DNA of 64,000 nucleotides from Tumebacillus sp. BK434. Its GTDB lineage: Bacteria > Bacillota > Bacilli > Tumebacillales > Tumebacillaceae. Location of the stretch: NCBI RefSeq assembly GCF_004340785.1, contig NZ_SLXS01000002.1, positions 248,001-312,000 of the forward strand, read 5' to 3'. The notes below the pieces were generated by a model. The model was not told where the DNA came from. It did not search any database and saw only the letters and a list, made by a program, of their open reading frames with translations. The translations under genes were made by a program, and so were the position numbers. Below, in pieces: positions 33,323 to 44,338 of this stretch (its first letter is position 1; every line of letters starts with the position of its first letter).

Positions 33323-35215
33323 ATGAATCCAACCCTTGAACTGATGAAGATCCGGGAGGAGAACATGAGGGAGTTACGCGCATCGCGTTCGCTCTTGTTT
33401 GAGTCCTTATTTTCGATGCAGTTGGACGAACAGAACATGACAGTCCGTGTAGAAGCGAGCAAAGCCGGCATGCCGACATTGTATTTGTCACGTGGGGAGG
33501 CCGCCGGACTGTTTCACAGTCGTTATCAGCCGCTAGTGGAAGCAGAGCGTTGGGCAGCTGCACACACAGATAAGAATGCAAAGAATCTTGCCTTTTTTGG
33601 GTTTGGACTTGGGTATCAGATCCGAGCGTTGAGGGAAGCAATTGGTGCAGATAAAGGCATCATTGTTCTCGAACCATCTTGGGAAGTGTTTGATACTGCA
33701 TTGGGAGCCGTCGATCTTCGCGATCTGTTAAAAGATGAAAACCTCCACCTGATCATCGGAGGTACTGCGCGTCAACTTGCACGTCAAATGGGTGCGCTTG
33801 CCGGTCAGAAGATGTTCGAGATGGATTGGCTAGAATGGCCGGCATTCCGCCGTTTTTACGGAAATGAGTATCTGGAAGAGTTTTCAAAAGAGTTGTCGCG
33901 TTCGATGCGGGATGCGCGACTCGATCAGAATACGGTACTTTACTTTCAACGCGAATGGCCGCGCAATATTCTGTACAACCTGCCGGCAATCTTAAAAAAT
34001 CCGGGCATCAACGCTCTTCAAAACAAGTTCAATAAGAAGCCCGCGATCATAGTGTCAGCAGGTCCCTCACTTTCTAAAAATGTGGAAATGCTTCATGAGA
34101 TAAAAGATAAAGCTGTCATCTTGTGCGTAGATACCGCGTACCGCGTTTTGCAGACAAAAGGGATCCAACCTGACCTGATTTTCTCACTGGACGGTTCAGA
34201 ATTAAATTATCGTCATTTTACAGGTGTCAGACCGGAAGGCATTCCTCTGGTCATGGTACCAAACGTGCATCATAAAATCATTGAGGAATACGGGCAGCGT
34301 GTCTTTAGTGCCAACATATTTGACATGCTGGTCTCTGAAGTGGTCAAACAGATTGAACCAAAGGGACTGCTCAGTGTGTCAGGATCGGTGGCAACGTTAG
34401 CGTTTAGCACCGCTTGTCGCATGGGATGTGATCCTGTCATCTTTATCGGTCAAGATCTTGCCTATCCAGGAGGACAAGCTTACTCAAAGGGTACGATGTT
34501 TGAGACAATGACTAAGACCGTAGAGAATGGCTTCATGATGCGTCATGTTGAAGGAATCGACGGAATGCCTGTTTTGACAGATGCGCAGCTTGACTCATTC
34601 CGAGTATGGTTCGAAGTTCAGATTGAAGAATACGAAGCGGGAAGAACTTTTGTCGATGCCACGGAAGGCGGCGCCAAGATACATGGGACTGAAATCATGA
34701 CGTTGCGTGAAGCCGTTGACCGTTATTGCACCGAGAGTTTTGATATTCAGGGCGTGATAGAGAAAGTTTCAGAACGACGAAGCGACGATCTCAACCCGAG
34801 CATTATGGCACTGCGTACCATGAGCCGTACGCTTTATCAGATTAGACGCCTCGCGAAACTCGCACTGATCAAAAATCAAGAACTGCGTGAACTTTACAAG
34901 TTGCGTCGTTTGCGTGCGGGTAAGGTGGCATTCATCAGCGCCATGCTGGACCGAATAGAAGAACATATCAAACGGCTTAATGGAGAGAAGTGGCTGGATG
35001 CTCCCATGCAACACCTTTTGCTAGTCGTTACCAGAGGAAGACTTGCTCAGGCTCCTGAAAATGAGACCGATCATGCTAAAGCCATGCGGGTGACCGAGAA
35101 TGCGAAGTTACTCTATCAAGGGATGGTGCAAACTGCAGAAGAGCTGAAAGATCATGTGGAAGTTGCGCTACGTCGTCTGGAGACAGAAACCATACAGGGA
35201 GAGAAACTACGATGA
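33323..35215 (+). CDS. Maf-type flagellin glycosyltransferase (DUF115)
   Basis: A 630-residue motility-associated factor. Maf enzymes transfer CMP-activated nonulosonic acids (legionaminic or pseudaminic acid) to Ser/Thr of flagellin before export. The central DUF115/MptE-like domain shows KPAIIVSAGPSLSKNVEML, LCVDTAYRVL, IFSLDGSELNYRHF, VSGSVATLAFSTACRMG and IFIGQDLAYPGG. N- and C-terminal helical domains flank it. AAAGGAG lies upstream of ATG 33323. It overlaps fliS by four bases, so it is translated with the flagellin chaperone. A complete set of sugar genes follows at 36-42 kb. Confidence 0.9.
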   Translation: MNPTLELMKIREENMRELRASRSLLFESLFSMQLDEQNMTVRVEASKAGMPTLYLSRGEAAGLFHSRYQPLVEAERWAAAHTDKNAKNLAFFGFGLGYQIRALREAIGADKGIIVLEPSWEVFDTALGAVDLRDLLKDENLHLIIGGTARQLARQMGALAGQKMFEMDWLEWPAFRRFYGNEYLEEFSKELSRSMRDARLDQNTVLYFQREWPRNILYNLPAILKNPGINALQNKFNKKPAIIVSAGPSLSKNVEMLHEIKDKAVILCVDTAYRVLQTKGIQPDLIFSLDGSELNYRHFTGVRPEGIPLVMVPNVHHKIIEEYGQRVFSANIFDMLVSEVVKQIEPKGLLSVSGSVATLAFSTACRMGCDPVIFIGQDLAYPGGQAYSKGTMFETMTKTVENGFMMRHVEGIDGMPVLTDAQLDSFRVWFEVQIEEYEAGRTFVDATEGGAKIHGTEIMTLREAVDRYCTESFDIQGVIEKVSERRSDDLNPSIMALRTMSRTLYQIRRLAKLALIKNQELRELYKLRRLRAGKVAFISAMLDRIEEHIKRLNGEKWLDAPMQHLLLVVTRGRLAQAPENETDHAKAMRVTENAKLLYQGMVQTAEELKDHVEVALRRLETETIQGEKLR

Positions 35216-35616
35216 TTAACAATCCGTATCAAAAATATCAAAACCAATCGGTACAGACGGCAACACCGGAACGTCTTCTGCTGATGCTGTTTGAAGGTGC
35301 GATCCGCTTTTGCAAAGAAGCGATGATTGGAGTAGATCAGAACAATTTCCAACTTGCAAATGAAAAGAACATTCGTGTGCAAAACATCATTAACGAGTTG
35401 ATCGTGACTCTCGACAGAGAAAAGGGCGGGGAAGTGGCAGTGAACTTACTGTCGATTTATAACTATATTAACCAGCGCCTGATCGAAGCGAATTTAAAGA
35501 AAGATAAGACGATCTTGGAAGAAGTGCTCTCCCATCTCACAGAGTTGCATCAAGCCTTTAACGAGGCTGCACAGGTTGTCCGTGCGCAAAGCGGCCGCAC
35601 TGGCGATCAGGCATGA
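35212..35616 (+). CDS. fliS: Flagellin export chaperone FliS
   Basis: Binds the C terminus of flagellin and prevents premature polymerisation; in Bacilli it also joins the FliW/CsrA circuit. The 134-residue protein starts NNPYQKYQNQSVQTATPERL and continues LLMLFEGAIRFC, the family signature. A helical remainder follows. ATG overlaps the maf stop codon (ATGA). Confidence 0.96.
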   Translation: MINNPYQKYQNQSVQTATPERLLLMLFEGAIRFCKEAMIGVDQNNFQLANEKNIRVQNIINELIVTLDREKGGEVAVNLLSIYNYINQRLIEANLKKDKTILEEVLSHLTELHQAFNEAAQVVRAQSGRTGDQA

Positions 35617-35627
35617 GGAGCAATCGT

Positions 35628-35987
35628 ATGAGTCGATTGGATCTTGCAAAGTACATTTTGGAGATAACTCAAAGCATCCAGCGAGCCTTAGCGGTTAATG
35701 CGGACGAGCAAATCGTCGACCTGTTTGATAAACGGCAACATGCAATCTCCGAATACTTACTGCTTGAGGAAGAAGGGGAACATCAAGGCACCGACGTTGA
35801 AAAAATCCAAGCGCTGATGAGGGAAGGATACAACCTTAATCAGAAGATCACTTCACTGTTAAAGCAAAAACGTCAACAATTGTTGCAAGAAATGCAAACT
35901 GACGGTCAAATGCGGGAAGCGAACAACGCATATACATCGCCCTATGAAACGGTTTACGAACCGATGTTTTTCGATAAAAAGAACTAA
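35628..35987 (+). CDS. fliT: FliT-like flagellar chaperone
   Basis: A 119-residue helical protein right after fliS, in the usual fliT position. Pattern: ILEITQSIQRALAVN, DLFDKRQHAISEYLLL, IQALMREGYNLNQKITSLLK. FliT-type proteins chaperone the cap protein FliD. ATG 35628 has GAGGAG 7 bases upstream; an overlapping ATG at 35613 is in frame but lies before that site. Identification rests on position and helical character more than on motifs. Confidence 0.75.
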   Translation: MSRLDLAKYILEITQSIQRALAVNADEQIVDLFDKRQHAISEYLLLEEEGEHQGTDVEKIQALMREGYNLNQKITSLLKQKRQQLLQEMQTDGQMREANNAYTSPYETVYEPMFFDKKN

Positions 35988-36000
35988 TCCCCCACAGACT

Positions 36001-36082
36001 TGTGAGTAATGTGGAAAAGTGCAGTGGATATGTGCATAACTCTGTGGATAAGCGTGGATCACTGTGGATTGACTGTGGAAAA
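36001..36082. promoter_or_regulatory. Phased cluster of DnaA-box-like sites
   Basis: Between fliT and legB, eight 9-mers in one orientation resemble the DnaA box (TTATCCACA, read here as TGTGGATAA). They start at 36001 (TGTGAGTAA), 36010 (TGTGGAAAA), 36023, 36031 (TGTGCATAA), 36043 (perfect TGTGGATAA), 36053, 36063 and 36074 (TGTGGAAAA). Four fit the relaxed consensus TTWTNCACA. From 36043 on they recur every 10-11 bases, i.e. on one face of the helix. No dnaA, dnaN or oriC genes are nearby, so a DnaA-binding cluster outside the origin is most likely. Confidence 0.6.
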
Positions 36083-36106
36083 CGAGACGATGAGGATGGA
36101 TGAGCG

Positions 36107-37117
36107 GTGGATTTGAACAACAAAAAGATTCTGGTGACCGGTGCGGACGGCTTTATCGGCTCCCACCTCACCGAAGAGTTGGTGCGGCGCGGCCATGATG
36201 TGCGCGCGTTTGTTTACTACAACTCGTTTAACTCGTGGGGATGGCTTGACCACTCTCCGCAAGCGATTCGGGGGAGCCTCGATGTTTTTGCGGGTGACAT
36301 CCGCGACCCGTACGGGGTGAAGCAGGCGATGCAAGGCTGTGATGTCGTCTTGCATCTGGCGGCCTTGATCGCCATTCCCTACTCGTACCATTCGCCGGAC
36401 ACCTATGTGGACACCAACGTCAAAGGCACGTTGAACATCGTGCAGGCAGCCCGCGAACTGGGTGTGCAAAAAGTTGTCCACACCTCGACGTCCGAAGTGT
36501 ACGGCACGGCAAGATTCGTCCCGATCACCGAAGAGCATCCGCTGCAAGGGCAGTCGCCGTACTCGGCGAGCAAGATCGGGGCCGATCAGATGGCGATGTC
36601 GTTCTACAGTTCCTTTGACACGCCGGTCTCGATCATCCGACCGTTCAACACCTACGGCCCGCGTCAGTCGGCCCGCGCGATCATCCCGACGGTGATCACG
36701 CAGATTGCCAATGGCAAGCGCACGCTGAAGCTCGGCTCGCTGCACCCGACCCGCGATTTCAACTATGTGAAAGACACGGTCGACGGGTTCATCGCCGTCG
36801 CCGAGTCGGACCGGTCGGTCGGCGAAGTGATCAACATCGGCAGCAACTTCGAGATCTCGATCGGCGAGACGGTGGAACTGATCGCCGAAGTGATGGGCGC
36901 GAAGGTGGAGATCGAGACGGAAGCGGCGCGCCTGCGCCCGGAAAAGTCGGAAGTCGAGCGCCTCTGGGCAGCCAACGCGAAAGCAAAGGAGCTGCTCGGC
37001 TGGCAGCCGAAGTACGGCGGTCGCGAAGGCTTCAAGCGCGGTCTGCTCGAGACGGCCGAATGGTTCACCAATCCTGATCACCTGAAAGGCTACAAAGCCG
37101 ATCTCTACAACATATGA
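36107..37117 (+). CDS. legB: NDP-N-acetylglucosamine 4,6-dehydratase (LegB-type)
   Basis: First committed step toward legionaminic acid. It converts an NDP-GlcNAc into a 4-keto-6-deoxy sugar. The 336-residue extended SDR has the Rossmann motif VTGADGFIGSHL, an active-site STSEVYGT and YxxxK in YSASKIGADQMA, and the substrate loop RPFNTYGPRQSARAIIP. GTG 36107 has GAGGAT 9 bases upstream. It begins the high-GC sugar operon, whose genes all overlap or nearly overlap: legB-legC-legG-legI-ptmE-legF. Confidence 0.9.
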   Translation: MDLNNKKILVTGADGFIGSHLTEELVRRGHDVRAFVYYNSFNSWGWLDHSPQAIRGSLDVFAGDIRDPYGVKQAMQGCDVVLHLAALIAIPYSYHSPDTYVDTNVKGTLNIVQAARELGVQKVVHTSTSEVYGTARFVPITEEHPLQGQSPYSASKIGADQMAMSFYSSFDTPVSIIRPFNTYGPRQSARAIIPTVITQIANGKRTLKLGSLHPTRDFNYVKDTVDGFIAVAESDRSVGEVINIGSNFEISIGETVELIAEVMGAKVEIETEAARLRPEKSEVERLWAANAKAKELLGWQPKYGGREGFKRGLLETAEWFTNPDHLKGYKADLYNI

Positions 37118-43074: not shown

Positions 43075-43204
43075 ATCCTTTCCTGCAATGCCAATCTTCC
43101 ATCTATCTTACCACATTTTTGCGCCGGTTAGCCCTGCCGCACAGGAAAACGAACGCCCGAGTGAGAAGTCATTAAGGAGACACACAACGAAAGGAGCTTG
43201 GACG

Positions 43205-44338
43205 ATGCGCGAAGTGGTTCGAATCATGCAAGCGGGCGATCTGCACCTCGGCACGCCGTTTTCCGGAAGCGGGTTTCCGGTCGAAAAGGCGCGCAAAAGA
43301 CGGCGCGAACTGCTCGGCACCTTCCGCAAACTGGTGGAAGCGGTCGTGGAGCAGAAGGCGGAGCTGTTGCTGCTCACCGGCGATGTCTTCGAAGCCGATT
43401 GGGTCTCGGAAGCAGAAGTCGCCGAAGTGCGCCAACTGCTTGCCGGGCTCAACCGTCCCGTGCTGATCACGCCGGGCAACCATGACTGTCTGCAACCGGG
43501 CGGCCCCTATTCCTTCGGGGATTGGCCCGACAATGTCCATATCTTCGGCCCGCAAGTGGAGGCCGTTTCATTTGAAGCGTACCATCTCACCGTACACGGC
43601 TACGGCTATGGAGCCAGATGGCTCAAGGAAAATCCCTTCCGCAACTACCGCGTCCCCGAAGACGGCGGCCTGCACATCGTAATGATCCACGGCTCCTTCG
43701 ACGCGCCTGAAGGTACTCCGTACCTGCCGATCAGCGCCGCAGAAGTCAAAAACATCGGCGCCGACTACGCCGCATTCGGCCATTACCACCAAGCCAGCGT
43801 GTTGCTTGACCAAGCCGGTCTGATGCAGGCGGCCTATGCCGGGTCGCTGGAGCCGCTCGGCTACGACGAACCGGGCGAACACGGCGCCTTCCTGCTCGAA
43901 GTCACCCGTGGCGGGGCGCGCGTCGAATGGCTGCCCCTCGCACAGCGAGCGTACTGCAGCCTCGAAGTCGACATCAGCGGCGCCCAATCCCTTTTTGACA
44001 TCGTCGAAAAAGTCAACACAGTGGTGCCCGCCGCGTCCAAAGGCCGCGACCTGCTCGACATCACCTTGAGCGGGGCACTCGATCCGGGACTGATTCTCGA
44101 CCGCGAAGATCTCCTCGAGCGCCTGCAAGACATCGCCTATCACTTGCGCCTCGTCGATGACACCCATCCTGACATCGACGGCGACGCCTTTGCCGCGCAT
44201 TCTGCGCAAGGCCGCTACGTGGCGCGGCTTCGCGAGCGGCTGGAAAGCGAAACGGACGAAGCGAAACGCCGCACCCTCGAACGGGCTCTGCAACTCGGCC
44301 TGCTCGCCTACGAACGCGGCAAGGTGGTGAACACATGA
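43205..44338 (+). CDS. yhaO: YhaO/SbcD-type DNA exonuclease
   Basis: A 377-residue calcineurin-like metallophosphoesterase. All metal-binding motifs are present: GDLHLGT, LLLLTGDVFE, TPGNHDCL, MIHGSFD and AFGHYHQ. The family acts with an SbcC/Rad50-like ATPase in DNA repair; the partner gene overlaps by four bases. AAAGGAG lies 9 bases before ATG 43205. A longer in-frame extension to 43040 overlaps an opposing gene's start region and has no ribosome site. Confidence 0.92.
   Translation: MREVVRIMQAGDLHLGTPFSGSGFPVEKARKRRRELLGTFRKLVEAVVEQKAELLLLTGDVFEADWVSEAEVAEVRQLLAGLNRPVLITPGNHDCLQPGGPYSFGDWPDNVHIFGPQVEAVSFEAYHLTVHGYGYGARWLKENPFRNYRVPEDGGLHIVMIHGSFDAPEGTPYLPISAAEVKNIGADYAAFGHYHQASVLLDQAGLMQAAYAGSLEPLGYDEPGEHGAFLLEVTRGGARVEWLPLAQRAYCSLEVDISGAQSLFDIVEKVNTVVPAASKGRDLLDITLSGALDPGLILDREDLLERLQDIAYHLRLVDDTHPDIDGDAFAAHSAQGRYVARLRERLESETDEAKRRTLERALQLGLLAYERGKVVNT

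Follow-up and report, generated by a model that had tools for sequence, protein, structure and literature searches.

A candidate DnaA-box cluster outside oriC, found behind fliS-fliT in several families of Bacilli

The closest described relatives of the array reported here are the clusters of DnaA boxes outside oriC in Bacillus subtilis, six of which were reportedly the subject of a study by Okumura et al. in 2012. According to PMC4447404, these clusters are located at ywlC, trmE/jag, gcp/ydiF, yydA, sda/yqeG and ywcI/vpr. Their removal leads to early initiation, according to two later reviews (PMC5295017 and PMC13220808), and the effect is strong only if none of the six is left (PMC5295017). 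In Escherichia coli the clusters outside oriC include datA, DARS1 and DARS2, which adjust DnaA; their distance from oriC matters (PMC5010248). According to PMC13220808, B. subtilis has no datA, SeqA or Hda. The E. coli datA acts with IHF on the nucleotide of DnaA (PMC5295017).

The array shares with the B. subtilis clusters the grouping of several TTATNCACA-like boxes within a short gap between genes, away from oriC, and, in the case of ywlC, a distance of roughly 0.4 Mb from oriC (PMC4447404). It differs from them in its place 3' of fliS-fliT and in a core of same-direction boxes with steps of 9 and 12 bases, found in several families. Among rows 1-18 of the in vitro DnaA list for B. subtilis in PMC4447404 there is no fliT or hpf locus, and no report of the locus 3' of fliS was found in the open-access literature searched. 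To judge from sequence, the array would add this locus to the known kind of cluster, with an unusual depth of conservation.

The window, i.e. the whole stretch of 64 kb of Tumebacillus sp. BK434 that was analysed, contains the features collected in Table 1. Upstream of the array the genes are, by Pfam, fliD, one for a protein with a HrcA-type DNA-binding domain, one for an MptE-like/Maf protein and fliS, followed by the fliT-like ORF, whose stop is 13 bases before the array. Downstream, 24 bases separate the end of the array from the start of legB, and the leg block opens with genes for a dehydratase, a DegT-type aminotransferase and a UDP-GlcNAc 2-epimerase (Pfam). The preliminary description placed the array at the border of a low-GC filament block, and the composition agrees with it, GC being 44-51% at 29-36 kb and 57-63% at 36-43 kb.

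Table 1. Features of the array and its surroundings (positions in the window)
Feature	Position	Strand	Remarks
fliS, flagellin chaperone	35212..35616	+	Pfam FliS, E 8.7e-39; anchor gene of clusters across families
fliT-like ORF, 124 aa	35613..35987	+	assigned by position only; no Pfam match
Core-aligned stretch	36000..36051	+	aligned core, common to other families, is approximately TTGTGnnnAATGTGnnnAA n5 TGTGGATAATGTGnATAACnCTGTGnATAA; R1 match 36024-36055, 18.0 bits, E 2.6e-4
DnaA-box array	36001..36082	-	eight same-direction 9-mers reading TTATCCACA-like on the - strand
Sole perfect DnaA box TTATCCACA	36043..36051	-	kept in G001 and G002
legB-like NAD-dependent dehydratase, first gene of leg block	36107..37117	+	Pfam; relatives annotated LegB

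The boxes start at 36001, 36010, 36023, 36031, 36043, 36053, 36063 and 36074 (steps of 9, 13, 8, 12, 10, 10 and 11 bases) and differ from TTATCCACA at 2, 1, 2, 1, 0, 2, 2 and 1 positions in that order, half of them (4/8) being weak boxes with two mismatches. TTWTNCACA is matched by four, including the perfect one. A recount thus returned everything that had been claimed of the array itself: eight same-direction 9-mers in 82 bases, one perfect, four within TTWTNCACA, and a 10-11-base step from 36043 on (measured as 10, 10 and 11). The window as a whole is not enriched, with 9 sites of at most one mismatch against 6.2 expected, 4 of the 9 being in the array. Per 82 bp of one strand the array contains 8 boxes with at most two mismatches and 4 with at most one, and the rest of the window never exceeds 3 and 1. 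The corresponding maxima were 3 and 2 in 200 first-order Markov simulations of 64 kb, and 4 and 2 in 100 simulations of local composition. The cluster is well above chance and in this respect is of the B. subtilis kind. Genome-wide, TTWTCCACA showed only mild enrichment (97 sites listed, 61 for the reversed control word). Three such words fall within 75 bp at two places of the genome, the array and a site beside the citrate synthase gene, which the ywlC locus and oriC join when 150 bp are allowed. A search of Rfam with 35800-36300 gave no match.

For helical phasing, the other property attributed to the array, the window copy gives a vector strength of 0.89 at 10.5 bp. When eight 9-mers are packed at random into 82 bp, 18% of the arrangements do no worse (null 0.177), so phase is not significant in the window copy taken by itself. 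The array is at the same place in both other genomes of the genus that were compared, with the order of the boxes kept. In G001 it comprises nine boxes with steps of 9, 13, 8, 12, 10, 10, 11 and 11 bases; in G002 six boxes have at most two mismatches and the others are eroded or deleted. Indels within the genus amount to about one helical turn each, a gain of 12 bases in G001 and a loss of 10 in G002, and by three-way alignment the whole gap between the genes on either side of the array is conserved.

The region around fliS was surveyed in 76 genomes, comprising 12 of the 14 of the window's order (those with fliS) and 64 others; fliS had been identified in 104 of 151 genomes, 29 of which were left out of the survey. 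The threshold was at least three boxes of at most one mismatch in 100 bp within 1.4 kb of fliS. On the 3' side 20 genomes reached it, none had exactly two boxes and 56 had one or none, whereas no genome (0/76) reached three boxes on the 5' side; the sequence surveyed was 85.9 kb 5' against 104.8 kb 3', three of the 3' stretches being shortened by contig ends. None of 760 simulated 3' stretches reached three boxes. The positives were 7 from the window's family and 13 from 8 other families (f12, f17, f22, f23, f25, f27, f28 and f35). The five genomes examined from other families of the same order had no cluster (G007, G009, G010, G011 and G012); two of these, G011 and G012 (f2), have a legB gene behind fliS. 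With f26 (see below) and the window's family included, an array or cluster is present at this locus in ten families. The genes that follow it vary and include legB, FlaG (in the single sister-genus genome tested) and, as named by eye, an hpf-like gene, a binding-protein lipoprotein gene and others.

The core can be aligned box for box across the 8 other families. In the 13 outside arrays it reads approximately TTGTGnnnAATGTGnnnAA, five bases, TGTGGATAATGTGnATAACnCTGTGnATAAC, with boxes in one direction and starts 9 and, mostly, 12 bases apart. The window core reads CTTGTGAGTAATGTGGAAAAGTGCAGTGGATA-TGTGCATAACTCTGTGGATAAG, one base fewer than the outside core; it is without one middle A (GTGGATA-TGTGCATAA). 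In the three arrays of f25 the core has no third box; several outside arrays have a degraded first half, and 6 of the 13 have a box in the opposite direction nearby. Among the periods tried, the 31 boxes outside the core in these 13 arrays phase best at 10.5 bases, with a vector strength of 0.73, a figure in which shared descent makes the boxes not independent of one another. The preliminary description had named lack of conservation of the repeat and its phase in relatives as grounds for giving it up; no such loss was found within the genus or between families.

A sequence-only model of the 13 outside arrays (R1), trained without the window's family, scored 32.4 bits in G002 and 28.0 in G001, and less in the window (Table 1). 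Run over 250 genomes of the class under strict filters, it gave matches in 196, among the matches listed. R1 also matches other DnaA clusters, namely those upstream of rlmH (L015), beside lysS (L109), at ywlC (L107) and at oriC. Since it finds DnaA arrays of such design generally, claims about the locus rest on position and not on the score alone. The best listed match was compared with the position of fliS in 58 genomes, 45 of them not used for R1, and the two were on separate contigs in 30 of the 58. In the 15 held-out genomes with both on one contig, 11 had the match on the strand of fliS, 0.4-15 kb to its 3' side; the exceptions were G044, with a match 40 kb 5' of fliS, and three f8 genomes, where it was megabases off. 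A second set comprised 17 genomes picked mostly from the best R1 matches, 14 of them with fliS. Here 9 of the 11 with a listed match on the same contig, all from f26, had it on the fliS strand, 2.5-15 kb in the 3' direction, the exceptions being G215 (f8) and G153 (f42), at about 2 Mb from fliS. In f26 the array is adjacent to fliS in 17 of 19 genomes, and in the other two (G034 and G136) fliS is within about 1 kb of a contig end. The f26 loci that were read often had, by eye, a MotB-like gene before the array and a binding-protein gene after it.

The sister genus has a comparable arrangement, fliS, the next ORF, a DnaA-box cluster and a further ORF being present in all four genomes compared. 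These clusters contain 4-5 boxes, none with more than one mismatch, spread over no more than about 100 bp and running in both directions, which indicates that same-direction phasing is not essential. The ORF behind the cluster was identified as FlaG in G003, the one sister-genus genome tested. No legB follows these clusters, and the best LegB matches of the sister genus are only 30-34% identical. R1 misses three of the four clusters and gives in G006 a short match of 21.5 bits on the opposite strand. The place is thus constant, but the two genera differ in the direction and order of the boxes and in the gene behind them, and their two designs need not be of common descent.

In 12 of 13 mappable genomes the array lies to the same side of dnaA, at a distance of 341-669 kb, or 6.7-14.0% of the genome, figures in which nine sizes are rounded and the values for G146, G213 and G052 assume a circular contig. 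In those 12 the fliS side of the array runs with the fork. The exception, G249, mirrors this arrangement, at 360 kb on the other side of dnaA. The distance is about 549 kb in G001 and 446 kb in G002, each of which is a single contig. Conserved gene order alone may account for this steadiness.

That the array lies outside oriC, as first described, agrees with the best dnaA match being on another contig (C13) than the array (C2). At the array no GC-skew switch was found, nor were replication genes among its neighbours; both traits of oriC, the dnaA/dnaN context and the skew switch, are absent from it. The dnaA region of this genome has a dnaN-like gene (by eye) and boxes of its own with the same word, TTATCCACA. 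It shares with the array this word and a 12-base step, and differs from it in its mixed-direction boxes, the presence of dnaA and a somewhat AT-richer stretch, the best 27 bp being 81% AT in the dnaA-dnaN gap against 74% near the array, a weak argument against an origin. A secondary or relic origin at the array is extremely improbable, for all that same-direction box pairs occur near dnaA too and R1 weakly matches oriC (17.6 bits), since the skew switch and the replication genes are missing and dnaA, the dnaN-like gene and their boxes are elsewhere.

The reading favoured here, with rather better than even confidence, is that of a conserved DnaA-box cluster outside oriC, of the B. subtilis kind, which would hold DnaA after the fork has passed. 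As a DnaA-box cluster the array stands by its sequence, its place and the conservation of its architecture, while binding by DnaA is what we infer from these; titration of DnaA is a sound guess. The array would be the genus copy of an old element located 3' of fliS-fliT in many Bacilli, separated from oriC by some tenth of the chromosome, and the fork would duplicate it soon after initiation. Several DnaA molecules would bind next to one another along the same helical face, and the extra boxes would take up DnaA, leaving less of it free and helping to delay the next round, as reported for the six B. subtilis clusters. A bolder version, an ancestral initiation-timing element of Bacilli with a phased same-direction DnaA platform and a datA-like role, lost in the lineage of B. 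subtilis, is conceivable but rather doubtful. It is quite improbable that the array acts on the nucleotide state of DnaA in the manner of datA or DARS, ordered assembly promoting ATP hydrolysis or release of ADP: ordered, phased and conserved boxes at a fairly constant distance from oriC would fit, but B. subtilis is without IHF and datA/DARS, and its known regulators are not known to act on nucleotide state (PMC13220808). Whole-unit indels in the genus could be slippage, which would fit a tandem-duplication relic or a repeat for another protein. Such a site with no part for DnaA is nevertheless very improbable, as the conserved letters of the 13 outside arrays are the DnaA box itself, the sister genus has boxes of either direction and the identical TTATCCACA recurs in this genome around dnaA.

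The most substantial of the alternatives with a local function is that DnaA regulates the gene behind the array, in the window legB, by blocking or aiding a promoter or by stopping read-through from the flagellar genes, so that synthesis of a surface sugar would be tied to the cell cycle. The array's closeness to the start of legB, in a gap conserved throughout the genus, speaks for it, as does the fact that in B. subtilis sda is activated by DnaA, while ywlC is among the genes that DnaA appears to repress (PMC4447404). It is unlikely all the same. The downstream gene differs among groups, which means that regulation of legB is not a common function of the arrays, and the legB genes behind fliS in G011 and G012 are without an array. 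A sigma-70-type scan of 35400-36400 and a SigD-type scan of the 64-kb window gave no promoter match, results that do not exclude a promoter; single-word SigD matches were uninformative, and terminator-like matches were near chance (2 found, 1.1 expected). The suggested control of legB is thereby weakened, although some local regulation may exist, and the adjacency of array and legB is probably incidental. The array probably serves, and has long served, to hold DnaA, and is probably not a switch for the neighbouring sugar gene. That several families have kept it in place, and for the most part with its boxes in order, suggests that its function is under selection; it offers a defined target of 80 bases to delete or to move. 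A gene next to a cluster is not necessarily regulated by it, which bears on DnaA regulons inferred from sequence.

Other DnaA-box clusters were identified in this genome, two of them at loci where B. subtilis has clusters too. One is between jag and trmE (Pfam R3H/KH and MnmE) and another just upstream of the ywlC homologue (Pfam Sua5), the latter with a TTWTCCACA spacing equal within one base in G001 and G002. Five mixed-direction boxes lie between the genes for citrate synthase and an FtsJ-type methyltransferase (L108:2586-2696; G000:C5:72585-72695), the outer TTWTCCACA sites being 102 bases apart; these sites form a group in G001 and G002 too. A second same-direction array, with 6 boxes of at most one mismatch and 24.5 bits by R1, was identified beyond a lysS-like gene (by eye) near a contig end (L109:2159-2239; G000:C8:125658-125738). 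In two other families clusters are located just upstream of a rlmH-like gene (by eye; L014:1441-1539 and L015:1328-1561), yydA in B. subtilis; steps of 8 and 12 bases, as in the window core, are seen in the L015 cluster. A further cluster, found with R1 in G181 (L229, approximately 1510-1602), follows closely behind a gene that by eye is tsaD (gcp)-like, and resembles the known gcp/ydiF locus of B. subtilis.

As to legB itself, the idea that the array travels with it was discarded, none of the 80 legB loci listed having at least two TTWTNCACA within 600 bases upstream of the match; R1 gave one weak match on these loci (13.5 bits, E 0.023). A search of plasmids had matches only in legB and related dehydratase genes. 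Beyond the leg block, at 43175-44338 of the window, is a gene for a calcineurin-like phosphoesterase, and a gene of the same Pfam family is located about 0.9 kb behind flaG in G003, which looks like an insertion of the leg block in the lineage of the window or a loss of it in G003.
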